NCBI RefSeq assembly: GCF_021228295.1
Contig: NZ_JAJQPD010000011.1
Coordinates: forward strand, 1 to 64,000
Source: Agromyces humatus
Lineage (GTDB): Bacteria; Actinomycetota; Actinomycetes; Actinomycetales; Microbacteriaceae
DNA length: 64,000 nt
Direction: 5' to 3'
Positions 17,678 through 40,195 of this stretch are shown in pieces. The notes beneath the pieces were generated by a model that searched no databases, was not told the DNA's origin, and saw only the letters and a program-made list of their open reading frames with translations. A program made the position numbers and the translations under genes. Numbering within the stretch: position 1 is the stretch's first letter; the number at the start of each line of letters is the position of its first letter.

Positions 17678-17715
17678 GTAGCGAGGGCGGGACTCGAACC
17701 CGCGACACCACGATT
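17678..17715. other. attL: 38-bp copy of the tRNA-Met 3' half
   Basis: Identical over 38 bp to 27538-27575, the 3' half of the intact tRNA-Met gene. The match ends at the base next to the anticodon (17716 c versus 27576 a). It is not a functional tRNA because the 5' half is missing. Confidence 0.93.
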
Positions 17716-17741
17716 CTCGACGCAGCCGAATCAGGGGTTTC

Positions 17742-17841
17742 TGCGGGGTCGCGCTGCATGCCTCTGGCCGCTGATTCACTGGCCACGGCATCCCGACGCA
17801 TACCGAGCGTTGCCGCTGAATGTGCGGGGTAAATGCGGGGT
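17742..17841 (+). repeat. Left-arm integrase-type repeats TGCGGGGT (x3)
   Basis: TGCGGGGT occurs at 17742-17749, 17823-17830 and 17834-17841, all in the same orientation. The last two starts are 11 bp apart. The same octamer recurs three times beside the right attachment site with an identical 11-bp pair, as expected for arm-type binding sites of a lambda-type integrase. Confidence 0.7.
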
Positions 17842-17859
17842 CGAGGCGACGCGCAAGAG

Positions 17860-18432
17860 TTATCGGGTACGGCCAGCGTCCGGCCGGGCTCGCACCGGGG
17901 TCGCGTTGAACGAGCGCACATAGGCGGCGTGCACCTTCTCGACGGCCTCGCGAAGCTTGACGTTCCGGCCACCGAGGCGCTCGCCGCGCAGCTCGCCGAC
18001 GTAGACGACGGCGGCGCCCTCGCGCACGATGCGCACAGCGCCGTACTCTCGGCCGGTGGAGTCGACCAGCGTCCAGACTCCCGGCGTGTGCTCCTGGGCG
18101 TTGAGCAGCGGATGCCGCGCCGACCCGTCGCCCGATCCCGGCGGCACCCTCGGTGGCTCGGGCGCCCTCGTCGACTCGGCGGCCTTCGGCAACTCGGCCG
18201 CGGCGCGGTACTCCCACCAGACAGTCTCGGCGGCGAGGCGCAGAGCGTCGACCGGGAAGTAGCCGAGGAACACGCGCGCATCCTCATCCGGCGCCCAGGT
18301 CTCGGCGCGGAGCAGCGGGCGTGGTGGTGAGCTGACGTGCACTTCACGGATCACGGCGATGCGCCTCGAGTCGTCGAACAGCAACCACTCGCCGGCACGG
18401 ATCGACCTTAGTTTCGGCTGCCAGTAGCGCAT
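17860..18432 (-). CDS. Hypothetical element protein, 190 aa
   Basis: A 190-residue soluble protein with no recognised domain. The N-terminal half contains WQPKLRSIRAGEWLLFDDSRRIAVIREVHV and GYFPVDALRLAAETVWWEYRAA. A Pro/Glu-rich linker (about residues 82-108) leads to a second half with WTLVDSTGREYGAVRIVREG and KLREAVEKVHAAYVRSFNATPVRA. The two halves look like related beta-rich units (possibly a duplicated fold; inference). It lies at the attL end, beyond the origin-like region, separate from the main leftward operon. Confidence 0.7.
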   Translation of the reverse strand: MRYWQPKLRSIRAGEWLLFDDSRRIAVIREVHVSSPPRPLLRAETWAPDEDARVFLGYFPVDALRLAAETVWWEYRAAAELPKAAESTRAPEPPRVPPGSGDGSARHPLLNAQEHTPGVWTLVDSTGREYGAVRIVREGAAVVYVGELRGERLGGRNVKLREAVEKVHAAYVRSFNATPVRARPDAGRTR

Positions 18433-18483
18433 CGGGCGGCTGCTCCATTCGAGGGAAGCGCACCGGCCCGCGCGGGGATCAAT

Positions 18484-18630
18484 CTACGCCGATCGACCGT
18501 CACTCGCCTCGGGCGCCTGCTCGATCACCGAGACCGCGCACGAGCGGCAGATGTAGCGGCCGGCCTTCCAGATCGTGCGCGTGCCGCAGACCGGGCAGTC
18601 GGGCTCGGTCGCGATTAGGTCGTCATCCAT
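18484..18630 (-). CDS. Small zinc-ribbon protein, 48 aa
   Basis: A 48-residue reading frame from ATG 18630 to TAG 18484. It holds two CxxC pairs, CPVCG and CRSCA, separated by 13 residues, forming a classic zinc ribbon, with acidic ends. It is too short for ordinary ORF cut-offs. It sits between the 190-aa unknown and the iteron region, same strand as both neighbours. Small zinc ribbons in mobile elements often contact DNA or RNA polymerase; no specific role can be claimed. Confidence 0.7.
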   Translation of the reverse strand: MDDDLIATEPDCPVCGTRTIWKAGRYICRSCAVSVIEQAPEASDGRSA

Positions 18631-18694
18631 GGGCCCGGCCGAGTGCACCTGGCGGGGATCGGAGTCAGCCGACCGAGCCGAAGAGCGCGGGCTC

Positions 18695-19091
18695 GGAACA
18701 GGCGGAACATGTTCCGAGCCAACTCGGATTCAGGGGGAGGGATGGCTGTAGAGCCGAAGGCGGGGGTGCGACGGTGCCGACAAAAAAAACCGCTTGACGG
18801 TCGTCTCGCGAGGTCGGTCGGAACACTTGGAACACGTTCCGCCCTACCTTTACCTCTTACACACCTACTATTCCTTTCTTCCCTTTCTACTCTCATTAAT
18901 AGAGTGGGACATGTTCCGCCTGTTCCTGCCCAGTGTTCACGCGGGATGCAGCCTGTTCCGCTACCTGTTCCGAATCGGTGCCGAGACGGCCTCCGCCTGT
19001 TCCGAGACGGCCTCCGCCTGTTCCGAGCGGCTCGGTCGCTCGCTCGCCGCTGTCGCGGCACGATCGTTGTACCTGTTCCGCCACCTGTTCC
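18695..19091. other. Putative replication origin: GGAACA/TGTTCC iterons around an AT-rich tract
   Basis: About 600 bp (18631-19238) without a convincing gene. GGAACA occurs at 18695, 18704, 18820 and 18829; TGTTCC at 18710, 18912, 18921, 18954, 18966, 18998, 19019, 19074 and 19086. Two sites form dyads: GGAACATGTTCC (18704-18715) and GGAACACGTTCC (18829-18840). Left-side copies read GGAACA and right-side copies TGTTCC. They flank a pyrimidine-rich AT-rich stretch (18843-18905), which stands out sharply in this GC-rich sequence. Iterons plus an unwinding-type tract, in an element with an SF3 helicase, suggest an origin. A regulatory centre is the alternative. Confidence 0.6.
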
Positions 19092-19238
19092 GAGAGCCCG
19101 ACTCAGCGCGTCTCAGTCGAAGCTTCGGCCACCCGCACTCGGTGACCCGATCGGCATGGCATCCGCTCGGGGGTGCGGGGGTGCGCGGCTGCGCCCCGGC
19201 CAGCTCGAGGCGACCGGGGCGCAGTGTGTGAGTCGCGT

Positions 19239-20657
19239 CTATGCGACGGCGTTTACGAGGTCGCGCATGCTGTCGTCGGAGACGAGCACGTAGCGCTGAG
19301 TCGTCGCGGGTGAGGCGTGGCCGAGCAGCTGCTGCACGGTGAACACGTCACGGCCGTGATTGTAGGCGCGAGTCGCGAACCGGTGCCGCAGCGTGTGCAT
19401 GGTGACGCCCTCGGGCAGGAGCCGCGAGATGATCTTCGACATGTAGCCGGCGGACAGGTGACCGGCGCTTCCGCCGGGGAACACGAACCCGTCGCCACGC
19501 GCACGGAGCTGCGCGGCGAGGCTGGCCTTGATCGGGACGCGCCGCTGCTTCGAGCCTTTGCCGTGTACGACGAGCCATGCCGAGTCGGTCGGCCCGGCGA
19601 TGTCGCGGGAGTGCACGCGGGCAACCTCGCCCGCGCGTAGGCCGGCCTCGACGGCGAGGCGGATCGCGAGTGTCTCCCGATCGTCGGCGTCCTCGAGCGC
19701 GCCGCGCAGCGCGTCGTCGTCGGTTGGGCGGGCGAGGTAGCGTGTCAGCCTCACCTTGGGGAGCTTCTCGGCTGGGCTGGCTTCGATGCGCCCTGAGTCG
19801 ACCATCCACCGGTAGAACTGGCGCAGGGCCGACCGTGCGCCGCGTCGCGTCTCGGCGGCCCAGTGCTTGCCGCCCATCCATTCGAGCAGGTCATCGAGCG
19901 CGACTGTCGTCGGCTCGAGCGAGGGGCAGTCGCGGGCGAAGCGGCGCAGGTGTGCGAGGTATTGGCCGCGCGTGGTTGCCGGGTAGCCGGTGCCGATCAT
20001 GGCCCGGTCGTACGCGGTGAGCACTGGTTCCCATGCCTCGGGCACCGCGAGGCGAAGCGAGCGATGCGTGCCGCTGTCGGTCGGGTCGGTGTGGGCGCGA
20101 CCGCTGCGCACGGCCCAGCGGTAGAACGCGCGCAGCGAGTCGCGCAGCGATGCCTCGACGTGCGGGCCGGTGAACGATTGCAGCCAGCCCTCGACATCCT
20201 CGACTGTGACGTGCCAGGGCGAGCCCTCGCGGCCTGCAGCGAACCGGCGAACCCGATCGATGCGGCGCCGGATCGTCGCGGGCGCCCGGCCGGCGGCGCG
20301 CTCGGCGACCTCGAACGCGGTGAGGGCATCACTCCAGACGGCCTCGATCGTGCGGCCCGGCGCGACTGGCGGGGGGACCATGCCGGGCTCGGCGAGTCCG
20401 CGGCGGTGGCCCCACTCGTAGAAACCGCGCAGCGCGATCCGGTAGTCCTTTCGCTGCTGGCCCTCGGCGAGCTGCGAGAGCCATGCCGCGACCATGGCCG
20501 GGGTCATCGCCCATGGCGCCGCGGCCGCCTCGCCCGCGAACCGGCGGAGGCGGGCGAGGCGGGTGCGGATGGTTGACGGCGAGTATCCCTGCACGAGCAT
20601 GCGCCGCTCGAAGCCGTCGAGCTCGACGACCCACTCGTCGGACGGAACGCGGTTCAT
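19239..20657 (-). CDS. Tyrosine recombinase with three tandem core-binding repeats
   Basis: A 472-aa protein. The C-terminal catalytic domain (about 310-472) has the full set: R341 (AGLRAGEV), K367/K370, H421 and R424 (HTLRHR), H447 (LLGHAS), Y456 (TQRYV). Unusually, the N-terminus holds three consecutive SAM-like core-binding units of about 100 aa. Matching segments are YSPSTIRTRLARLRRFA...FYEWGHRRG (25-87), RAPATIRRRIDRVRRFA...FYRWAVRSG (124-186) and YPATTRGQYLAHLRRFA...FYRWMVDSG (225-289); one is normal. ATG 20657 overlaps the upstream stop (ATGA). It ends the leftward operon next to the iteron region, so it may resolve replicated multimers, XerC/D-like (inference). Distinct from the att-proximal integrase. 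Confidence 0.88.
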   Translation of the reverse strand: MNRVPSDEWVVELDGFERRMLVQGYSPSTIRTRLARLRRFAGEAAAAPWAMTPAMVAAWLSQLAEGQQRKDYRIALRGFYEWGHRRGLAEPGMVPPPVAPGRTIEAVWSDALTAFEVAERAAGRAPATIRRRIDRVRRFAAGREGSPWHVTVEDVEGWLQSFTGPHVEASLRDSLRAFYRWAVRSGRAHTDPTDSGTHRSLRLAVPEAWEPVLTAYDRAMIGTGYPATTRGQYLAHLRRFARDCPSLEPTTVALDDLLEWMGGKHWAAETRRGARSALRQFYRWMVDSGRIEASPAEKLPKVRLTRYLARPTDDDALRGALEDADDRETLAIRLAVEAGLRAGEVARVHSRDIAGPTDSAWLVVHGKGSKQRRVPIKASLAAQLRARGDGFVFPGGSAGHLSAGYMSKIISRLLPEGVTMHTLRHRFATRAYNHGRDVFTVQQLLGHASPATTQRYVLVSDDSMRDLVNAVA

Positions 20658-21010
20658 TCGAGTGCTCCACTCATCGGGTCGCTGGCGAGGATCGCGCCGA
20701 TCTGCGCCGTCCATGCCTGGATGCCGTGCAGATCGGCGGCAATCGCCTGCAAGCCGTCTACGTCGAACTCGCCGCGCAGCTCGAGGGACATGGCGAGCCG
20801 GACCGGCCCGGCGCCGACGCGGATGAACGCGGCCGAGCCGAGCGAGCCGAGCTTGATGTCTTCGCCCTCGTGGACCCATGCGTCGGGCTCGGCGCCGTCG
20901 CCGCCGTGGTCGAGGTAGCGGCCGCGGCACCACGAGAGCGGGCAGTCGATGCGTCGATGGTTCATCGCGAGGAACTCCGCATCGGTGATCTCGTCATCGA
21001 AGCGGGTCAT
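20654..21010 (-). CDS. Hypothetical element protein, 118 aa
   Basis: A 118-aa protein joined by ATGA overlaps to both neighbours. Its N-terminus is acidic (MTRFDDEITDAEFLAM). The motif HRRIDCPLSWCRGRYLDHGG places two Cys and two His in about 20 residues, a possible metal site. The second half (SLGSAAFIRVGAGPVRLAMS, then LQAIAADLHGIQAW) looks like a beta-then-helix domain. No family recognised. Coupled translation with the tape-measure-like gene suggests co-regulated late expression. Confidence 0.68.
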   Translation of the reverse strand: MTRFDDEITDAEFLAMNHRRIDCPLSWCRGRYLDHGGDGAEPDAWVHEGEDIKLGSLGSAAFIRVGAGPVRLAMSLELRGEFDVDGLQAIAADLHGIQAWTAQIGAILASDPMSGALE

Positions 21011-22152
21011 TCGAGGAACCTTCCAATCGTGCCGTCAGCGTTCACGCGCACGGTCATGGTCGCGCCGCGGTTCAGGCGTCGTTCGAGGGCGTCGAGGTCG
21101 GTCGTGTTCACGTTGACCTTCACCGTGGGCTGCGGCGGGTTTGCGGCCTTCGCGTAGTACCGCTCGAGCGCGGCGCCACGGTCGGTGATCGCCTGTCGCG
21201 CAGCGCTGTTGCCGGCGGCCTCTTTGGCGTTCTGGGCTTCGACGAGCGCCAAGTACTCTTCGGCGTTGCTCTTCACGGTCTGCTGCAGGCCGAGCTGATC
21301 CTGGTACTTACCGACGATCTGCTCGAGGGTCGCGACCTCTGCCGTCTCGATGTCGAACACGTTCTTGCCGGCGTCGGCCTTGTCGCGCATCTTCTGCGTG
21401 CCTTCGTCGACGAGCGCGTTGCCTGCGGCGATGACGGCATTGATTGCGTCCTCGTCGCCGGCCATCGCCTGCACGACGAGCTGCCGATCTACCGCGAACT
21501 TCGCGGCATCCGCCGTCGCGACCGCGAGGCGCTCGGCGTCCTCGTAGATCGCGCCAGATTCCTCGATGATCTGCTGAACGCTGAGGTAGTTGCGGCCTTC
21601 CTCTGCGGCGGCGATGTACGCCTCGGTGAGTCGGCGCTTGAGTTCGTCGGCTTCCTCTTGCTGCTTCTGAATCTCCGACGTGATCACGCCGATGCCGACC
21701 GCGGCCGCGATGCCTGCGGCGGCTCCGAGCGGGCCGAACCCGGACATGCCGTTCGCGACGGTCTCTTGGATGAACTCGCCGACGTCGGACCACTCGCCGC
21801 GGAAGCTGGCCGCGGACTCGCGGCCAGCCTGGCCGGCCTCGTCTTTCAGGTCGTTGGCACCCTCCTTCGCTTTGTCGAATCCGTCGTCGGCGGATTGCTT
21901 CATCTTGCGGTAGGCGTCGCGGTACTCGCGCTCGATGATGCGGGCGGCGTCCTTCGTCTCGTCCGCGAGGTTGTCGGTTGCCTTCTGCGCGGCCTCGAGG
22001 TCGCGCTCGAGCTGGTCGGCACCCTTGCTCTTGCCGAGTTCTTCGAGGGCCTTCTCAGCGTCCTCGAGGGGCTTGATGATGCCGGTCTCGACGCCTTGCT
22101 TGAACCCCTTGGTTTCGGAGCTGATCGGTACTTCGATATCGCCACGTGCCAT
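21007..22152 (-). CDS. Phage tail tape-measure-like coiled-coil protein
   Basis: A 381-aa protein. It opens MARGDIEVPISSETKGFKQG, the usual start of tape-measure/minor-tail proteins, followed by long charged helices (residues 20-130). A Gly/Ala-rich hydrophobic stretch (about 140-160, GPLGAAAGIAAAVGIGVI) resembles tape-measure membrane segments. More coiled coil and a beta-type C-terminus (PTVKVNVNTTDLDALERRL) complete it. AAAGGA precedes ATG 22152. Real tape measures are usually much longer and sit among tail genes; here there are none. A satellite could use a short one to remodel or hijack a helper tail; this is inference. A membrane-active or adhesin-like role is also possible. Confidence 0.7.
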   Translation of the reverse strand: MARGDIEVPISSETKGFKQGVETGIIKPLEDAEKALEELGKSKGADQLERDLEAAQKATDNLADETKDAARIIEREYRDAYRKMKQSADDGFDKAKEGANDLKDEAGQAGRESAASFRGEWSDVGEFIQETVANGMSGFGPLGAAAGIAAAVGIGVITSEIQKQQEEADELKRRLTEAYIAAAEEGRNYLSVQQIIEESGAIYEDAERLAVATADAAKFAVDRQLVVQAMAGDEDAINAVIAAGNALVDEGTQKMRDKADAGKNVFDIETAEVATLEQIVGKYQDQLGLQQTVKSNAEEYLALVEAQNAKEAAGNSAARQAITDRGAALERYYAKAANPPQPTVKVNVNTTDLDALERRLNRGATMTVRVNADGTIGRFLE

Positions 22153-22195
22153 GATCTTGATCCTTTCGGGATGGTGTGTTTGGTCGGCTGGATGC

Positions 22196-22855
22196 TCAGG
22201 CGAACAGGCGGCGCAGGGTGTCGCGTGCGGCCTCAGCGCGGGTGCGGCCGTCAGCGAGCTTGGTCTCGGCCTGCTGGGCGATGTAGGCGGCGCGCACCTG
22301 CTCGAAGCAGATCGCGCACGAGCGGAGTGCCTTTGTGGGGTACGGCGCGCGGTCCTCGGCCTCTTCGAAGTACAGCGCACGGGTCTTGACCGGCAGGCCG
22401 GTCTCGCGAGTTAGTGCGACGGTGCCGCATTCCGGGCAGGTGTGGTGCTTCTCGTGGGCAGCGGCGGCGCGCGCCCGCTCGCGGACGGCCGTCGACTCGG
22501 CGAGAGCGGCCGCGACCGCGGCACGGTGGGCGAACACGCCCTCGTAGTCGTTCAGGATCTCCCACTTGAGGGACTCGACGTCGGCCTCGATCCGGGCGTC
22601 GATGACGTGGGGCGCGAGGTCGGTCGGGCGGTGCTCGCCGCTGTAGCGGCGGTTGACGACCTGTCGCGCGAAGGCGCGGGAGTTCATCCCGGCGAATGCG
22701 TCGCCGCGCGACAGCGCGGTGTGCGCCTCGGCGACCGCGGGGTAGACGGCCGCGTAGTGCTCGCGGGCGGCCTCGGGGACGAAATAGACCGAGCGCTCGT
22801 CGTCGTAGCCGGTGGGCAGGCCGGCGGCGGGCTTCGTGGTGGTGAACAGTGACAT
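22196..22855 (-). CDS. Hypothetical element protein with two CxxC motifs, 219 aa
   Basis: A 219-aa protein, AAAGG before ATG 22855. It is mostly alpha-helical with CPECGTVALTRETG (about residues 139-152) and CAICFEQVRAAY (about 181-192), which could pair as a split zinc site. The N-terminal section includes YDDERSVYFVPEAAREHYAAVYP. No known family recognised. It lies in the leftward operon between the small genes and the tape-measure-like gene. Confidence 0.7.
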   Translation of the reverse strand: MSLFTTTKPAAGLPTGYDDERSVYFVPEAAREHYAAVYPAVAEAHTALSRGDAFAGMNSRAFARQVVNRRYSGEHRPTDLAPHVIDARIEADVESLKWEILNDYEGVFAHRAAVAAALAESTAVRERARAAAAHEKHHTCPECGTVALTRETGLPVKTRALYFEEAEDRAPYPTKALRSCAICFEQVRAAYIAQQAETKLADGRTRAEAARDTLRRLFA

Positions 22856-22859
22856 GGTT

Positions 22860-23171
22860 TCAGTGCCTTTCGTGGTGCCCGGCGGGCGCCGGGGCGGTGT
22901 TGTGATGTGCGGTGCTGAACCGCTCCCACTCCTGTTCGAAGTGGGCGTCTAGGCGGCGCTGGCGAATCTCCGCCAGTGCCGTGGGGGTGTTGTTCGCGCG
23001 CTCGTACCAGAGGTCGGCGTCGCGGTTCGCTCGGTCGAGCTGCGGCCAGAGCCATGCGGCGCAGGCATCCCAGCCGCGGAGCCAGAGCGCCAGGGCGGCG
23101 GCGTCGTCGCGCGAGCGGGCCGGCGGCGGCAGCGGCGGCAGCGCGTCGCCGAGCAAGTGAAGGCGGGTCAT
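22860..23171 (-). CDS. Hypothetical element protein, 103 aa
   Basis: A 103-aa helix-rich protein: LWLRGWDACAAWLWPQLDRANR is strongly Trp-rich, and the end is basic/His-rich (GHHERH). Start ATG 23171 overlaps the previous stop (ATGA); the next gene begins 4 bp downstream. No family recognised. Its coupling to neighbours supports a real gene. Confidence 0.65.
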   Translation of the reverse strand: MTRLHLLGDALPPLPPPARSRDDAAALALWLRGWDACAAWLWPQLDRANRDADLWYERANNTPTALAEIRQRRLDAHFEQEWERFSTAHHNTAPAPAGHHERH

Positions 23172-23314
23172 CGGTCGGCCCTCTCATCGAAGTCGCCGCG
23201 GCGGATGCGGTCGGCGAGGCCGAGGTACACGGCCGTGGGCACGAACCCGACCGAGACGGCGCGCTCGTCGAGCCATGCGAGGATCGCGGCCCGGTCGAGG
23301 GGCGAGGCGTTCAC
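23168..23314 (-). CDS. Hypothetical small element protein, 48 aa
   Basis: A 48-residue frame from GTG 23314 (GTGA overlap with the upstream gene) to TGA 23168 (ATGA overlap with the downstream gene), with AGGAG ahead of the start. The product, beginning VNASPLDRAAILAWLDERAV, looks like a small helical bundle. Exact coupling on both sides makes it a convincing gene although it is short. Function unknown. Confidence 0.65.
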   Translation of the reverse strand: MNASPLDRAAILAWLDERAVSVGFVPTAVYLGLADRIRRGDFDERADR

Positions 23315-23520
23315 CGCTCGTCTCCTGCGACGGGGATCGGAAGGTGTGCGACGGCCCCCAGGAGGGCCGAGTAGGTCGCAGCGCGGCGGGCCTTCGCGGC
23401 CTCAAGTGATTGGGCCGACACACCATGAGCCGTGTGGATGTCTGCCACGATCAGCGAGGCGACCTCTTCGCAAGCGTCGACGTGCGCCCGGATGATGGTC
23501 ATCAGCTCGGTCTTGTTCAT
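23311..23520 (-). CDS. Hypothetical small element protein, 69 aa
   Basis: A 69-aa, mostly helical protein (MNKTELMTIIRAHVDACEEV ... AAKARRAATYSALLGAVAHL). It follows the helicase gene by 19 bp and overlaps the next gene by GTGA. No family recognised. Confidence 0.65.
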   Translation of the reverse strand: MNKTELMTIIRAHVDACEEVASLIVADIHTAHGVSAQSLEAAKARRAATYSALLGAVAHLPIPVAGDER

Positions 23521-23539
23521 CGCTTCGTCTCCGTCGTTC

Positions 23540-24895
23540 TCAGTCGGCCCTGAGGACCGTGATGCCGGTGTAATACCGCACGCGACGACCGCCGACGTTC
23601 GGCTGTGACGAGCCGATCCCGTGTGCTCGGAGCTTCGACCCGAACGGGCCCGACGCGACCGCCTGGTAGCCGTTCGCGGTGCACCAGCGCCGGTACGTCT
23701 GGTAGACATCCACGCGGGCTGCCGCGCCGGATGCGTCGAGCACGACGTTCTCGTCATCCTCGAGCCACTGAGCGATCGGGTCGGCCGCGTCGTGCAGTCG
23801 CTTTGTCGCGTCGACTGCGAGCTGCGGCGGGTCGAACCGGCCACGCGACATCAGTTCCCGAAGCGAGCGCATCGCGTGGTTGAAGATGCCGGCGAGCTCA
23901 TCGAACAGCACCGACTCGTCGAACGGTCCGAGCATCGTCACGTCGCGGTTGAATTCAACGACGCACCATCTGCGTTGCCAGCCCTTCGATGTGTCCGACG
24001 TGCGGAAGTACTCGTTCGCGGCGAAGATCGGCACGGCGTAGGGCGTGAAGGTGAACTGTTGCCCGAACTTCCTCGAGCATGTGAGGTCATCGCCTCCGGT
24101 CACGGTCTTGAGGATTTCGGGCTCGTTTACGAACTTGCTCGAGAGGTCGCCCGAGATGTTCGCTTGCACGCCGAACAGCGCGGCCGGCGCGAATCGATCC
24201 TCGATCAGGGTGTGGAGCGGCACGGCCGAGTAATTGTCGCGGCCGAGTAGACGCTGGATGACACGTAGCAGTACGGACTTCCCGTTGCCCCCGGCGCCCT
24301 GGAAGAGGAATGCCTTCTGGAATGGATTGCCAGTCATGAGGATGTAGCCGAGAATTTCCCAGACGTGCTCGATCAGGGCGGGATCCTCGAGCGTCGTTGT
24401 CAACCAGGTGTCGAAGTTCGAGCACTCGGCGGTCGGATCGAACCTCACCGGGAGCTTCGTGAGCGCACCGAGGGCGGGGTCGTGGTCGGTGATGTCATCC
24501 TCGCGCCAGTGGTAGACCCCATCGTCGAGAACGATGTACGGCAGGTATCCGCTCGGGAGGTCTCGCACGCCCACCGAGGTGAGGTCGAGGTTCAACATGT
24601 GCGCCTCGACCTGTCCGCGCACGGTCTGGCTGTAGCGGTGGCCGAGGGCGGCGGCGACTCGTCGAGTGATGCACTCCGGGTCGCGGCGCCAGACTCCGGT
24701 GTCGTACACGTACCAGTCGAGATCGATGCCGCGGCCGAGGCCGGGCGAAACGTGTGCTGCGACCTGCGTCGCGTCGAGCTTGCCGTCAGGGCCAGCGAAA
24801 GCGACCGGTGCGCTGTCGCCGCTCTTGCGGCTACCGCGGCCGCGTCCCTCGATAGGGACGACCTCTGCCAACGGCGGCTCATTCTCGCTCGCCAT
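23540..24895 (-). CDS. SF3 helicase, D5/P4-type phage/plasmid replication ATPase
   Basis: A 451-aa replication protein. A D5_N-like region (about residues 50-185, with WYVYDTGVWRRD and FDTWLTTTLEDP) is followed by an SF3 helicase: Walker A GAGGNGKSVLL (200-210), Walker B region VQANISGDL (243-251), sensor PIFAANEYFR, arginine-finger region KGWQRRW. A C-terminal winged-helix-like tail (VYQTYRRWCTANGYQAVASG) ends it. The N-terminus has no archaeo-eukaryotic primase motifs, so this is the helicase half only; P4-alpha-type proteins usually carry both. It should melt and unwind the element origin, presumably the iteron region. Priming would then rely on host or helper primase (inference). Confidence 0.88.
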   Translation of the reverse strand: MASENEPPLAEVVPIEGRGRGSRKSGDSAPVAFAGPDGKLDATQVAAHVSPGLGRGIDLDWYVYDTGVWRRDPECITRRVAAALGHRYSQTVRGQVEAHMLNLDLTSVGVRDLPSGYLPYIVLDDGVYHWREDDITDHDPALGALTKLPVRFDPTAECSNFDTWLTTTLEDPALIEHVWEILGYILMTGNPFQKAFLFQGAGGNGKSVLLRVIQRLLGRDNYSAVPLHTLIEDRFAPAALFGVQANISGDLSSKFVNEPEILKTVTGGDDLTCSRKFGQQFTFTPYAVPIFAANEYFRTSDTSKGWQRRWCVVEFNRDVTMLGPFDESVLFDELAGIFNHAMRSLRELMSRGRFDPPQLAVDATKRLHDAADPIAQWLEDDENVVLDASGAAARVDVYQTYRRWCTANGYQAVASGPFGSKLRAHGIGSSQPNVGGRRVRYYTGITVLRAD

Positions 24896-25100
24896 GGTGC
24901 TCGCCTCTCTGTACGATCGCGGCCAGCTTCAGCTCGCGAAGATCGGCATCGAAGATGTTGAACATCTCCGAGGCCGGCTCGAATCGATCCCGCTCGACCC
25001 GCGCGGCCTGCATCTGCTCGAAGAGCGAGGCGCTCGAGCCGTCGGCGCGAGAGACGTAGCTTGCGAGCACGGTCTCCCCCGCCGCCGCTTGCGCGCTCAT
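24879..25100 (-). CDS. Hypothetical small element protein, 73 aa
   Basis: A 73-aa protein (MSAQAAAGETVLASYVSRAD ... FEQMQAARVERDRF ... NIFDADLRELKLAAIVQRGE). ATG 25100 overlaps the previous stop (ATGA); the end overlaps the helicase start by 17 bp. Its position immediately before the helicase could suit a loader or origin-binding partner, but nothing in the sequence proves it. Confidence 0.6.
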   Translation of the reverse strand: MSAQAAAGETVLASYVSRADGSSASLFEQMQAARVERDRFEPASEMFNIFDADLRELKLAAIVQRGEHHGERE

Positions 25101-25318
25101 GCCGGACCCGCCGCCTCTTCGACGGCGCATGCATCGAGCCAGCGGAGCACATCAGCTTTGCGATACCGGACGTGAGCGCCGAGCTTGGTCGCTTTAGGGC
25201 CAACGCCCTCAGTCATCCACCGCGCGAGGGTGGACACTGCAACCCCGGTGAACTCGGAGAGCTCTGGCCGGGTCGAGAGTTCCGGCAGCGAGTCCACGCT
25301 GCGAAGAGTGGCGCTCAT
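25097..25318 (-). CDS. Excisionase-like helix-turn-helix protein, 73 aa
   Basis: A 73-aa protein with a MerR/Xis-type winged HTH: LSEFTGVAVSTLARWMTEGV, then the wing and VRYRKADVLRWLDACA, the usual ending of small HTH_17 DNA-binding proteins. It couples by ATGA to both neighbours. Likely an excision factor or a transcriptional activator of the operon. It is the second of two consecutive proteins of this fold. Confidence 0.78.
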   Translation of the reverse strand: MSATLRSVDSLPELSTRPELSEFTGVAVSTLARWMTEGVGPKATKLGAHVRYRKADVLRWLDACAVEEAAGPA

Positions 25319-25530
25319 CGGTCGTCCCCCGGCTTCTGCTGCGAGGTACTGAACATCTCGAGTAGCGGCTCACGTGGGATCAGAACACGCCGGCCGACCC
25401 GAACGCTTGGGATGGTTCCCTCGCGGATGCCCTCGTTCACAGTTCGGGGGTCGATCCGAAGGAGACGTGCGACCTCGGCACGAGTGAGAGTCGCGTGCCC
25501 GTCCTCGCGAGCTGCCTTCAAAAGATCCAT
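25315..25530 (-). CDS. Excisionase-like helix-turn-helix protein, 71 aa, first gene of leftward operon
   Basis: A 71-aa HTH_17-type protein: LTRAEVARLLRIDPRTVNEG, then SVRVGRRVLIPREPLLEMFS. AGGAG precedes ATG 25530; an upstream in-frame ATG (25548) has no such site. It is the first gene of a run of eleven leftward genes reaching 19239 and faces the repressor gene across a 101-bp switch region. Two different excisionase-like proteins in tandem suggest that one regulates and the other directs excision (inference). Confidence 0.78.
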   Translation of the reverse strand: MDLLKAAREDGHATLTRAEVARLLRIDPRTVNEGIREGTIPSVRVGRRVLIPREPLLEMFSTSQQKPGDDR

Positions 25531-25559
25531 GTTGCCATCTCCTGACACAGATTGATCGT

Positions 25560-25631
25560 GGATTACTTCTAGACATCACAGTACCTCGAAGTGCTTGGAG
25601 GATGCAACCAATGCGGGTATTGTTTCTACAC
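25560..25631. promoter_or_regulatory. Overlapping divergent promoters: lysogeny-type switch
   Basis: Rightward promoter: TTGGAG (25595-25600), 17-bp spacer, TATTGT (25618-25623), giving an apparently leaderless repressor mRNA with ATG 25632. Leftward promoter (minus strand): TTGCAT (25602-25607), 18-bp spacer, TACTGT (25578-25583). The leftward -35 lies inside the rightward spacer, so the two cannot be occupied freely together. Two related minus-strand repeats, TGTAGAAACAATAC (25617-25630) and TCTAGAAGTAATCC (25560-25573), 10 of 14 matching, are candidate repressor operators. Confidence 0.6.
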
Positions 25632-26279
25632 ATGGCAGAACGCAACAGTTCCGACTCCTGGCCGGCACGGCTCGCCGAGAGCGTCGGGCGGCAGGTGAAG
25701 CGCTACCGAGAGCGTCCAGAGTCGAAGATGAGCGCGCAGGCGCTGGCAGACCGGACGGCGGAACTCGGCCATGAGATCAAGCGATCAGTCATCGCGAACC
25801 TCGAGAGCGGCCGGCGCGACTTCGTATCGGTCGCCGACTTGCTCGTGCTTGCGAAAGCGCTCGACGTGCCACCGATGGCGCTGCTAATTCCGATCGAGGG
25901 CGGTGGAACCGTCGAGATTCTGAACGGCGCGTTCAGCGATCCCTGGCACGCCGTCGACTGGTTCAACGGTTGGAGCGACTACATACCGGCGACCGATTCC
26001 CGACCATCCAGCGGCGACTTCTCCGCCTGGTATGCGGCGACCGAACCCTTCACTCTGAAGCTCGCCTACGACGAACTACTGAGCGAGTACGACCAATCTG
26101 CGGTCGACGCGCAGGGCCTCGCGGACAACCCGACCGCCCACGAACTCGCAGTGAAACGGACGATTGAGATCAACAAGCGACTGCGCGCCCTCGAGGTCGA
26201 GCTGCAGAACCAAGGGATCGCAGTACCGACAATCCGGCGCAGAGCCGACGAACGCGGCCAGACCGGCGCAGGGGCATAG
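25632..26279 (+). CDS. XRE-family repressor of the element
   Basis: A 215-aa protein with an N-terminal HTH_3 domain (SAQALADRTAELGHEIKRSV, then IANLESGRRDF and VADLLVLAKALDVPPMALL). The C-terminal region has WHAVDWFNGWSDYIPATDSR and a helical end, unlike the S24 peptidase of LexA-type phage repressors; no autocleavage motif is seen. ATG 25632 is chosen over 25602 because the promoter -10 ends at 25623, implying a leaderless message. It is followed after 2 bp by the integrase gene, so repressor and integrase are co-expressed. Likely the immunity/maintenance regulator; induction may require a helper protein, as for satellites (inference). Confidence 0.85.
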   Translation: MAERNSSDSWPARLAESVGRQVKRYRERPESKMSAQALADRTAELGHEIKRSVIANLESGRRDFVSVADLLVLAKALDVPPMALLIPIEGGGTVEILNGAFSDPWHAVDWFNGWSDYIPATDSRPSSGDFSAWYAATEPFTLKLAYDELLSEYDQSAVDAQGLADNPTAHELAVKRTIEINKRLRALEVELQNQGIAVPTIRRRADERGQTGAGA

Positions 26280-26281
26280 TC

Positions 26282-27415
26282 GTGCCACGCCCTCGCACGC
26301 CGATCGCGAGCCACGGCGCCGTTACCGTCGTCGAGGTCGAGCCGGGGCGCTGGCGCGCGCGCACGCGATACCGGTTCGAGGACGGCAGGCTTCGCCAGGT
26401 CGAGCGTTTCGCGCCGTCGAAGGCCAAGGCCGTCGCGTCGCTCAAGCGCGCGTTGACGACGCTCAGCACGAGCACGGGCGGCGACGTGCGCCGCGAGACG
26501 CACCTGTCCGAGCTCGCTGACAGGTTCCTCGAGTCGAAGGCCGACCGCGCGCCGCGCACGCTCGACACGTACCGGCAGACGATCGAGCATCTCGTGCGGC
26601 CGGCGCTCGGGTCGGTGACGATCGCTGAGGCGACGCCAGAGCGCCTCGAGCGGTTCATCGCGCGCGTGCGGTCTACGAATGGGCCGGGCGCTGCGAAGGG
26701 GTGCCGCGCGGTGCTCTCGGGGATGATGGGCATCGCAGCGCGTGCGAACGCGGTCAGGCACAATCCGGTGCGGGAACTCTCGCCGATCGCCAGGGCGAGA
26801 GGCGGCGCCGAGGCGATCCCGGTCGAGCGGCTCGCCGAGCTGCTCGAGGCGGTGCGCGCTGACGAGCGGCTTCGCCAGGTCGACGCGGCCGACATGATCG
26901 AGTTTCTGGCCGGCACCGGATGCCGCGTCGGCGAGGCGTGCGCGATCGTCTGGGATGACGTAGACCTCGAGGCGGGCCGGGTGACGATCCGCGCCAACGT
27001 CGTGCGAGCGCGCGGCGTGGGCCTCATCCGCCAGGACCACACGAAGACGAAGGCCGGCGCCCGCACGATCGCGTTGCCGTCGTCGCTGCTCGGCATGCTC
27101 GTCGACCGGCGTGTGCGCCTTGAGTCGAACCCGCTCGGGCTCGTGTTCCCGACCGTGCTCGGCAACCTCCGCGACCCGCGCAACACGTCGCGAGACTGGG
27201 CCGAGGCGCGAGAGCGGATCGGCTACCCGACCGTGACGACGCACAGCTTCCGCAAGACGGTCGCGACGGCCCTCGACCGTGCCGGCCTCTCGGCGCGCGA
27301 CATCGCCGAGTACCTCGGCCACGAGAACCCATCGATCACGCAAGACGTGTACATGGCCAAGAACGCCGAGAGCGCTCGCGCCGCAGCGGCGATGGGCGAC
27401 TACCTCGCGCGCTGA
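26282..27415 (+). CDS. Tyrosine integrase of the element
   Basis: A 377-aa phage-type integrase: N-terminal arm-binding/AP2-like part (GRWRARTRYRFEDGRLRQVE), SAM-like core-binding domain (about residues 75-160), catalytic domain with R215 (GCRVGEA), K257, H321 and R324 (HSFRKT), H347 (YLGHENP) and Y357 (TQDVYM). GTG 26282 follows the repressor stop. The gene lies 122 bp from attR in tRNA-Met, the standard place for the enzyme that integrated the element. TGCGGGGT repeats in both arms are its likely arm sites. Confidence 0.93.
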   Translation: MPRPRTPIASHGAVTVVEVEPGRWRARTRYRFEDGRLRQVERFAPSKAKAVASLKRALTTLSTSTGGDVRRETHLSELADRFLESKADRAPRTLDTYRQTIEHLVRPALGSVTIAEATPERLERFIARVRSTNGPGAAKGCRAVLSGMMGIAARANAVRHNPVRELSPIARARGGAEAIPVERLAELLEAVRADERLRQVDAADMIEFLAGTGCRVGEACAIVWDDVDLEAGRVTIRANVVRARGVGLIRQDHTKTKAGARTIALPSSLLGMLVDRRVRLESNPLGLVFPTVLGNLRDPRNTSRDWAEARERIGYPTVTTHSFRKTVATALDRAGLSARDIAEYLGHENPSITQDVYMAKNAESARAAAAMGDYLAR

Positions 27416-27418
27416 AAG

Positions 27419-27481
27419 TGCGGGGTGCGGCGCGCCCGGCGCTCGAGTGTCGGAATCGAATGTGCGGGGTTTGTGCGGGGT
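27419..27481 (+). repeat. Right-arm integrase-type repeats TGCGGGGT (x3)
   Basis: TGCGGGGT at 27419-27426, 27463-27470 and 27474-27481, same orientation as the left-arm copies. The final pair repeats the 11-bp spacing seen at 17823/17834. They lie between the integrase stop and the att core. Confidence 0.7.
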
Positions 27482-27537
27482 CGGCCTACCTGATAACACA
27501 CGAATGGCCCGAACTTCCGCAGAAATCCGGGCCTCTT

Positions 27538-27575
27538 GTAGCGAGGGCGGGACTCGAACCCGCGACACCACGATT
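27538..27575. other. attR: 38-bp core within tRNA-Met
   Basis: The integrase-proximal attachment site, identical to 17678-17715. The core covers the tRNA 3' half up to the base beside the anticodon, so integration leaves an intact tRNA gene. Confidence 0.93.
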
Positions 27576-27612
27576 ATGAGCCGTGTGCTCTAACCACCTG
27601 AGCTACCCCGCC
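27539..27612 (-). tRNA. tRNA-Met (CAT), elongator type
   Basis: A 74-nt cloverleaf on the minus strand: acceptor GGCGGGG pairs with CCTCGCT-type 3' end region, D-loop AGCTCAGGTGGTTAGAGC, anticodon loop CTCATAA (CAT), T-loop GGTTCGAGTCC. CCA is not encoded. The 3' half is the integration target of the element. Confidence 0.92.
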
Positions 27613-40108: not shown

Positions 40109-40113
40109 TCGTG

Positions 40114-40195
40114 TGGCGAGTGAGGGATTCGAACCCCCGAAGTCGTAGACAGCTGATTTACAGTCAGATCCCTTTGGCCGCTTGGGTAACTCGCC
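40114..40195 (-). tRNA. tRNA-Tyr (GTA)
   Basis: An 82-nt class II tRNA on the minus strand: acceptor GGCGAGT pairs with ACTCGCC, anticodon loop CTGTAAA (GTA), a long variable arm as expected for Tyr, T-arm GGGGGTTCGAATCCC. The discriminator is A; CCA is not encoded. Confidence 0.93.

Follow-up and report, generated by a model that had tools for sequence, protein, structure and literature searches.

The integrated element and its insertion site

The window analyzed here is the 64,000-nt stretch of Agromyces humatus contig NZ_JAJQPD010000011.1 (assembly GCF_021228295.1), and it holds an integrated element of 9.86 kb that carries a homologue of a phage tape measure gene and no recognizable head or packaging gene. 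The element lies between two exact copies of a 38-bp direct repeat (17678-17715 and 27538-27575, spacing 9860), the right copy being the 3' half of a tRNA-Met(CAT) gene (27538-27612, minus strand), as a preliminary description of the sequence had reported. Its genes form two opposed blocks around 25550-25600: the repressor and integrase are read rightward, and a leftward array runs from 25548 to 19239 with adjacent genes overlapping or at most 43 bases apart. The array holds, in order, two HTH_17 genes, a small open reading frame (ORF), a superfamily 3 (SF3) helicase gene, small ORFs, a gene named here z219, the tape measure gene, a gene for a 118-aa protein, and a second tyrosine recombinase gene (rec2), the last three being coupled by stop/start overlaps. 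Beyond rec2 are 590 bases with iterons and then two short genes. Features of the element are listed by window position.

17678..17715, no strand: attL-like repeat, 38 bp (exact repeat; empty site in 5/29 relatives examined)
17860..18432, minus: 190-aa protein (ORF; without a Pfam, PHROGs, NCBIfam, or PADLOC match)
18484..18648, minus: 54-aa zinc-ribbon-like protein (zinc-ribbon matches below threshold)
18641..19238, no strand: likely replication origin, 13 TGTTCC/GGAACA iterons (motif count against shuffles)
19239..20657, minus: second tyrosine recombinase (rec2), 472 aa, three tandem core-binding domains (PF00589, SAM-like domains, structure model, alignment)
20654..21010, minus: 118-aa protein (DUF6907 match below threshold; relatives adjoin rec2 in L081, L082, and L083)
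21007..22152, minus: tape measure protein homologue, 381 aa (tblastn to phage tape measures, alignments, tree)
22196..22855, minus: 219-aa CxxC protein (z219), encoded upstream of the tape measure (no match among the prophage loci searched)
22860..23171, minus: 103-aa protein (ORF/gene prediction only)
23168..23520, minus: two small ORFs, 48 and 69 aa (gene prediction; without a PHROGs match)
23540..24895, minus: SF3 helicase, P4-family primase C-terminal type (Pfam, TIGR01613; relative in L082)
24879..25130, minus: small ORF, start possibly at 25100 (ORF/gene prediction)
25097..25318, minus: excisionase/AlpA-like HTH_17 protein (profile matches)
25315..25548, minus: excisionase-like HTH_17 protein (profile matches; 50% identical relative in L076)
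25602..26279, plus: helix-turn-helix (HTH) repressor, start possibly at 25695 (HTH_31, 4.9e-7)
26282..27415, plus: integrase of the element (PF00589, 2.9e-22)
27538..27575, no strand: attR-like repeat, 38 bp (within tRNA-Met(CAT), 27538-27612, minus strand)

The helicase matched D5_N (5.7e-9), DUF5906 (1.6e-15), and TIGR01613, the P4-family primase, at 163.8 bits (cut-off 108.7), over the C-terminal helicase part only. The 13 copies of TGTTCC/GGAACA compare with 0.28 expected and a maximum of 3 in 1000 shuffles, and this stretch is likely to be the origin used by the helicase. The integrase, repressor, two excisionase-like proteins, SF3 helicase, origin-like region, and tape-measure-like gene of the preliminary description, as well as its two opposed blocks around a switch, were thus all recovered.

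No terminase, portal, capsid, relaxase, or FtsK/TraB-type family was matched among the 14 element proteins scanned with Pfam and PHROGs, weak matches of both HTH_17 proteins to a terminase-small-subunit profile, over the HTH only, set aside; two further small ORFs had no PHROGs match. The earlier statement that terminase, portal, capsid, and relaxase are missing agrees with this, and its wording "without virion or conjugation genes" holds for head, packaging, and relaxase families but not for the tape measure, which is a virion gene. Beyond the weak TerS-profile matches, none of the packaging or capsid-redirection families of phage-inducible chromosomal islands (PICIs), namely TerS, Rpp, Cpm, Ccm, and Rcm, was named, although the libraries may not cover all of them. 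The P4-type genes Sid, Psu, and Delta, and also Ogr, were not named among the PHROGs matches, in a library that may not cover these. Own capsid, portal, and terminase genes, the trait of capsid-forming PICIs, were not found with Pfam, PHROGs, or a comparison with the small phages PensacolaC28 and BlueFeather, in which 29 phage proteins gave matches to the element only from the tape measures and the PensacolaC28 integrase. PADLOC gave no match for the element proteins scanned, and the tape measure homologue was also not named by Pfam, PHROGs, or NCBIfam. A structure model of z219 was poor (mean predicted local distance difference test score [pLDDT] 52.8) and was not used.

The tRNA-Met stretch is present in 58/60 genomes of the same genus. 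Thirty of these loci were taken, one being the window's own, and the other 29 were examined with at most 1.5 kb of flank to the left and right. Each of the 29 has a single copy of the 38 bp within this stretch, and in five (L095, L107, L108, L110, and L118; L and G numbers denote loci and genomes of the analysis) the left flank of the window is joined directly to that copy; these alignments span 104-187 bases, counting the 38 bp, with identities of 78-91%. Because these five relatives join the left flank straight to a single copy, the insertion is precise and the empty form of the site is known. One copy within 1.5 kb is insufficient as proof of an empty site, since genomes G047 and G030 have a second copy 14 kb off (2/20 longer stretches fetched, one of the 20 being only 3 kb long).

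Other DNA occurs at the same site. In G047 and G030, the 38-bp repeat at this tRNA-Met bounds 14-kb insertions (L125, 1923-16095; L134, 2210-16206) whose predicted proteins resemble, as judged by eye, those of transposase, helicase, or defense genes. In G049, a stretch beside tRNA-Met (L103, 1394-1459) has 81% identity over 68 bases to the integrase-side arm of the window element (27469-27534), and across 16 kb on the integrase side the repeat occurs once and no protein of the element is matched; the arm is perhaps the trace of an earlier insertion.

The tape measure homologue and the family of related elements

The gene at 21007-22152 is, by homology, a genuine tape measure gene, and its product would be incorporated into tails and set their length. 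Sixteen of 50,697 phage records matched it by tblastn; 15 are annotated as tape measure protein and one as hypothetical, and the 15 come from nine Microbacterium and Arthrobacter phages whose genomes measure 15-17 kb. The best match is PensacolaC28, a 16.7-kb siphophage (50.4% identity over residues 1-141, E 1e-32), and the protein aligns with phage proteins from L034 (32% over 413 positions) and L033 (42% over 260). It has a phage-like N-terminal domain, a hydrophobic segment around residues 140-160 (in the L045 protein, the peak falls slightly short of the cut-off used), and a C-terminal end similar to those of phage tape measures; two element tape measures touch Pfam TMP_N and TMP_3 below threshold. 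In phages, relatives of the gene are flanked by tail-tube genes on one side and tail-tip genes on the other. No match to the phage gene that directly precedes the tape measure (PensacolaC28 gp7 type) turned up in the elements, and z219 occupies that position in the window, L045, and L082. The element tape measures (348-476 aa) compare with 340-624 aa in 19 phage ones (median 489), and the idea that their purpose is a shorter tail is not supported in general, the nearest phage relatives being often equally short. At least 23 of 398 genomes of the family, the window's own included, match the window tape measure, a lower bound set by the few candidates scored per genome. The 22 loci fetched comprise 18 small prophages with PensacolaC28/BlueFeather-like genes, one satellite-like element (L045), and three loci (L051-L053) that matched nothing and were dropped. 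Terminase, portal, or capsid matches were found in 17 of the 18 prophages; the other (L037) ends at a contig edge.

Judged from its proteins and plan, the window element belongs to a family in Microbacteriaceae-type actinobacteria. Five further elements share the plan without recognizable terminase, portal, or capsid genes: L045 (tRNA-Ser, 9.5 kb, repeat of 31 bp at 94%), L082 of Microbacterium aerolatum (tRNA-Gly, exact 44-bp repeat, 9.5 kb), L083 of Microbacterium sp. RU33B (tRNA-Gly, exact 43-bp repeat, 8.2 kb), L084 of Agrococcus sp. KRD186 (tRNA-Gly, exact 42-bp repeat, 8.0 kb), and L076, which lies beside tRNA-Arg and is interrupted by a contig end. Two more relatives, L081 (Microcella) and L085 (Microbacterium), are cut by contig ends within or shortly past rec2. 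L045 was discovered through the tape measure, L076 through z219, and L081-L085 through rec2. The sites across the family are thus tRNA-Met, Ser, Gly-TCC twice, Gly-CCC, and next to Arg-CCT. The preliminary description had proposed looking for the same gene order in other Microbacteriaceae genomes at different att sites; the elements do recur at different tRNA sites without recognizable head or packaging genes, with a gene order that is similar and not identical. The related elements had no match to the terminase, portal, or capsid from PensacolaC28 or BlueFeather, and PHROGs gave no head or packaging match for 18 further proteins of L045, L076, L082, L083, and L084. Because the same kind of element recurs in this way, the window element is unlike a single decayed prophage, in line with the earlier view.

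Two of the elements, L082 (9180-18733) and L083 (9727-17946), sit at one and the same tRNA-Gly(TCC) site, next to a shared chromosomal gene (80% identical proteins), and have different replication genes. An SF3 helicase occurs in the window and L082 (49% identical); L045, L076, and L084 encode a related P-loop protein that is of a different type and at best VapE-like; L083 has a Prim-Pol and DUF3987-like pair, and L084 also has a Prim-Pol. Helicase relatives are few and distant (2/60 genomes of the genus at E 1e-3 and 4/398 of the family at E 1e-20, the window's own in both), and since replication modules are swapped, the helicase is no marker of the family. The tape measure is intact in 4/6 elements whose region is available (381, 348, 476, and 350 aa), or in 2/4 when the window and L045, found through it, are left out. 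The z219 gene is present in 4/6 (window, L045, L076, and L082), and the prophage loci searched gave no match to z219, to the 118-aa protein, or to the integrase of the elements.

The rec2 gene, overlooked in the preliminary description, is present in all family elements and encodes two (L045, L076) or three (window, L081, L082, L084) tandem core-binding domains before a single catalytic domain, as counted from full-length copies, with L083, whose start is uncertain, set aside. Most phage relatives of rec2 are ORFs of 270-365 codons, with room for one such domain. In a model of the window protein built from four sequences, residues 1-290 form three four-helix bundles, with pLDDT ≥75 in 25/29 ten-residue blocks. 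The model is poor in the catalytic part, and its predicted template modeling score is 0.30. Tyrosine recombinases have the catalytic set R, K, H-R, H, and Y, and R341, K367, H421, R424, H447, and Y456 are invariant in the four elements aligned. Phage integrases dominated the hits of a structure search with the model, and Xer-type and phage recombinases were the matches by sequence among solved structures, neither search leading outside this protein family; a literature search on tandem core-binding domains found no paper on them. A rec2-like integrase occurs in PensacolaC28 and in 12 of the 18 related prophages. Beside the integrase, rec2 could resolve replication multimers or act on the attachment site of a helper.

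In a tree of 23 tape measures, the four from elements are scattered among those of phages, with four changes, all forced by starred branches. Holding the element tape measures as one clade costs 65.7 log units (approximately unbiased [AU] test, p 0.014), or 47.9 (p 2.6e-5) without the L082 row, which is a long branch. Each element tape measure has a phage one, not another element's, as its best match (bits, phage versus other element: window, 164 versus 64; L045, 137 versus 106; L082, 121 versus 72; L083, 120 versus 86). In the rec2 tree (29 rows, the short rows L067, L068, and L085 left out), seven elements fall on one side of a branch found in 76% of bootstraps, with 0/500 shuffles as low. 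The tape measure thus seems to have been acquired repeatedly, from different tiny phages, and the simplest account would be a shared chassis whose tape measure has been exchanged repeatedly. Such exchange suggests a need for the gene to fit a partner, most simply the tail of a helper.

In the phage collection, a DNA search at near identity hit no more than four records, over stretches of ~40 bases, and scans of IMG/VR with the helicase, tape measure, and z219 and of genome contigs with the tape measure gave no relatives. The scan of genome contigs with rec2 gave 12 loci, five element-like (L081-L085) and seven distant. Four z219 candidates (G016, G160, G364, and G376) had no second element protein in the stretches fetched and were dropped, and 11 IMG/VR loci with rec2 relatives resemble phages or fragments, not family members. 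An 11.4-kb part of a 13.9-kb IMG/VR record holds a further element (L150, 276-11386) whose rec2-like recombinase carries two core-binding domains. Its other products include a terminase large subunit (4.1e-41), a classic tape measure (PHROG 6.5e-30), a primase-like protein, and a WhiB-like regulator, and no Phage_capsid (PF05065) match occurs anywhere in the whole record; it may represent another type of satellite with a tape measure, unrelated to the present family, or else part of a phage.

A proposed satellite of tiny siphophages and its rivals

On balance, the element is probably an integrated PICI/P4-like satellite of tiny siphophages that would supply its own tape measure to helper tails. 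In the proposed mechanism, the integrase and excisionases would move the element into and out of the tRNA gene, and the repressor would keep the leftward array silent. A helper phage would lift the repression, and the element would then replicate from the iterons with its own helicase and be packaged by the helper. The array-encoded tape measure would be built into helper tails, giving satellite particles with a satellite-specified tail shaft and ejected protein. The tape measure points to a helper of the PensacolaC28/BlueFeather type. Tail length follows a rule of 0.15 nm per tape measure residue, by which the 381 residues of the window protein would give ~57 nm. PensacolaC28, which is reported lytic and has 3' overhangs, has a 90-nm tail in the one particle measured (PMC11895466). 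Its tape measure of 560 residues gives about that length by the rule. BlueFeather, whose tape measure has the same length, fits the rule less well, with a tail of 156 +/- 53 nm in the available text of PMC7954295.

More tentatively, the whole may be read as a satellite family that re-tails its helper with a full tape measure gene (in most members) taken from several small-siphophage lineages. The swap could pass barriers aimed at the helper, and rec2, an integrase type of many such phages, would be a further hijacking tool; we hold this to be possible, short of probable. The swap could pass barriers because tape measures are targets of prophage exclusion and of tail-assembly blockers: as far as the available parts of the sources tell, Tab targets tape measures (PMC10884400), Ltp is an exclusion or defense system aimed at them (PMC3952083), and Tai genes, which act on tail assembly, occur in PICIs and P4-like satellites (PMC11364771). 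The tape measure could re-specify the tail, pass exclusion or defense, or interfere with phage tails, as Tai does by another route. Sequence cannot choose among the three; full length and exchange among phage lineages favor the first two.

Several observations weigh against the proposed satellite. A PensacolaC28-type terminase was absent from all eight element-bearing genomes searched, with one of six positive controls missed too: G000, G335, and G388 were negative where 5/6 prophage control genomes were positive, and the five genomes of L081-L085 were negative where one control was positive. The window's own genome has no Phage_capsid or TerL_ATPase match (4/14 and 3/14 control genomes positive). 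As no co-resident helper was seen in the genomes searched, the elements seem to await an incoming phage. A shared packaging signal was looked for as 12-mers common to six elements and 17 HNH-to-terminase regions, with 30 shuffles each; counts (shuffle mean, maximum) were 46 (28.5, 40) in the window, 30 (17.9, 31) in L045, 31 (22.8, 39) in L082, 6 (20.2, 37) in L083, 42 (25.8, 37) in L084, and 17 (23.0, 34) in L076, a mixed outcome that decides neither way, with 2/6 elements above the shuffles and no common word seen among those listed. The tape measure is reduced to a C-terminal remnant in L076, at a contig end, and none was found in L084, so that it is not essential. Since rec2 was the query that revealed five of the seven relatives, these contain it by construction, as L045 does the tape measure and L076 z219. 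The AU test was chosen after the tree was seen, and support for rec2 as one clade is only 78/66.

The tape measure could instead be an interference or defense protein that competes with the tape measure of the helper or of other phages, or poisons their tail assembly, and protects the host, with no place in productive satellite particles. Tail assembly is a known target of defense, as the available accounts of Tai (PMC11364771) and Tab (PMC10884400) indicate, and the gene sits in an array with replication genes, the late virion operon being absent from the element. The homologue is nevertheless phage-like in length, N-terminal domain, hydrophobic segment, and C-terminal end, it has no PADLOC match, the known blockers are not themselves tape measures in those accounts, and poisoning the tails of its own helper would harm the transfer of a satellite, so that we regard this role as unlikely. 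An integrative plasmid-like element, or one like the actinomycete integrative and conjugative elements, unrelated to phages and moved by conjugation or natural transformation, would carry the tape measure as a passenger. The integrase, excisionase, and replication genes alone fit such an element too, as does L084 with no tape measure found. This account is quite improbable, given that the relaxase and FtsK/TraB-type families were not matched among the 14 proteins scanned and that the tape measure, intact in 4/6 elements (2/4 of those not found through it), was apparently taken up separately.

Least probable, in our estimate, is decay: each element would descend from a small siphoprophage whose head genes have gone while the tape measure stayed by chance. 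Small prophages do occupy tRNA genes in the same bacterial family (6/18 have exact 35-40 bp repeats at tRNA-Arg, -Lys, or -Thr, 15.1-16.5 kb apart), and two-thirds of them carry a rec2-like integrase. Against decay, z219, the 118-aa protein, and the element integrase have no match in the prophage loci searched, rec2 groups the elements, and their tape measures come from different phage lineages; no other structural gene was recognized in any element, and the ORFs are intact in four.

Relation to known satellites and further observations

The element resembles PICIs, including the Staphylococcus aureus pathogenicity islands (SaPIs), in size, integrase, divergent regulators, its own replication gene, and the lack of a complete virion module; in the PICI layout, the integrase and repressor diverge from AlpA/Xis-like and replication genes, as they do here. 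It differs from them in having a tape measure homologue and a second recombinase and no recognized TerS, Rpp, or capsid-redirection gene, library coverage being uncertain. With P4-like satellites it shares the TIGR01613 helicase and an iteron cluster, and it differs in the missing Sid, Psu, Delta, and Ogr matches in PHROGs, whose coverage is again uncertain; its helicase also lacks the N-terminal primase part of P4 alpha. The earlier comparison with PICI/P4-type satellites holds for the plan; none of their packaging or capsid-redirection genes was recognized. Phage satellites are defined, in the available part of PMC13376191, as integrated elements of 7-20 kb with integrase, regulation, and replication genes and no viral structural genes; the window element has the size and these genes, and it has one tail gene. 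A precedent for a satellite homologue of a helper structural protein is Ccm of SaPIbov5, a homologue of the helper capsid protein that redirects capsid assembly (PMC8569155, available text).

Among actinobacterial satellites, the Streptomyces Mulch/Flayer pair, of which MulchRoom has an integrase, encodes terminase, portal, and capsid and is without known primases according to the accessible portion of PMC10690885, a gene content that is the reverse of that found here. Phage-inducible chromosomal minimalist islands (PICMIs) are likewise minimal satellites (int-alpA-prim, no capsid-remodeling genes, a six-gene prototype in Vibrionaceae); unlike the window element, they have no tail gene described in the part of PMC10803314 available. 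Pseudomonas AH14b (16.8 kb) has one tail-related gene, a homologue of tail assembly protein I like that of its helper, in the available text of PMC4936722, and this is not a tape measure. PensacolaC28 and BlueFeather (cluster FE, 16-17 kb) share the related tape measure, and PensacolaC28 also the rec2-like integrase, but both are complete phages with terminase, portal, and capsid.

A literature search, conducted largely outside subscription papers and covering actinobacterial and tail-stealing satellites as well, recognized no satellite with a tape measure gene in the texts available. To our knowledge, the satellites described so far either take over or remodel heads, or supply heads of their own and steal tails. 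If the proposed reading is true, a satellite whose sole contribution is a tape measure would mirror, on the tail side, the capsid redirection of SaPIs, and it would become testable whether a single tail gene determines which particles carry the satellite; such an element would also add an actinobacterial satellite family beyond the Mulch/Flayer pair, with tiny 15-17 kb phages as the likely helpers.

The integrase of PensacolaC28 is annotated as two genes, 17 and 18 (L006, 13009-13885), and, the phage being reported lytic, may be split and inactive. The adjoining gene 16 (L006, 12781-12999) encodes a small lipoprotein, in a position like that of Ltp-type exclusion lipoproteins in a lysogeny module. 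A filter for lipoproteins beside phage integrases gave 5/17 loci, of which three were judged clear (PensacolaC28 gp16, L037, and L046), with a background of 0.1 per 4.8 kb; these lipoproteins are only a lead. Elsewhere in the window, a lone tRNA-Tyr gene lies at 40113-40195.

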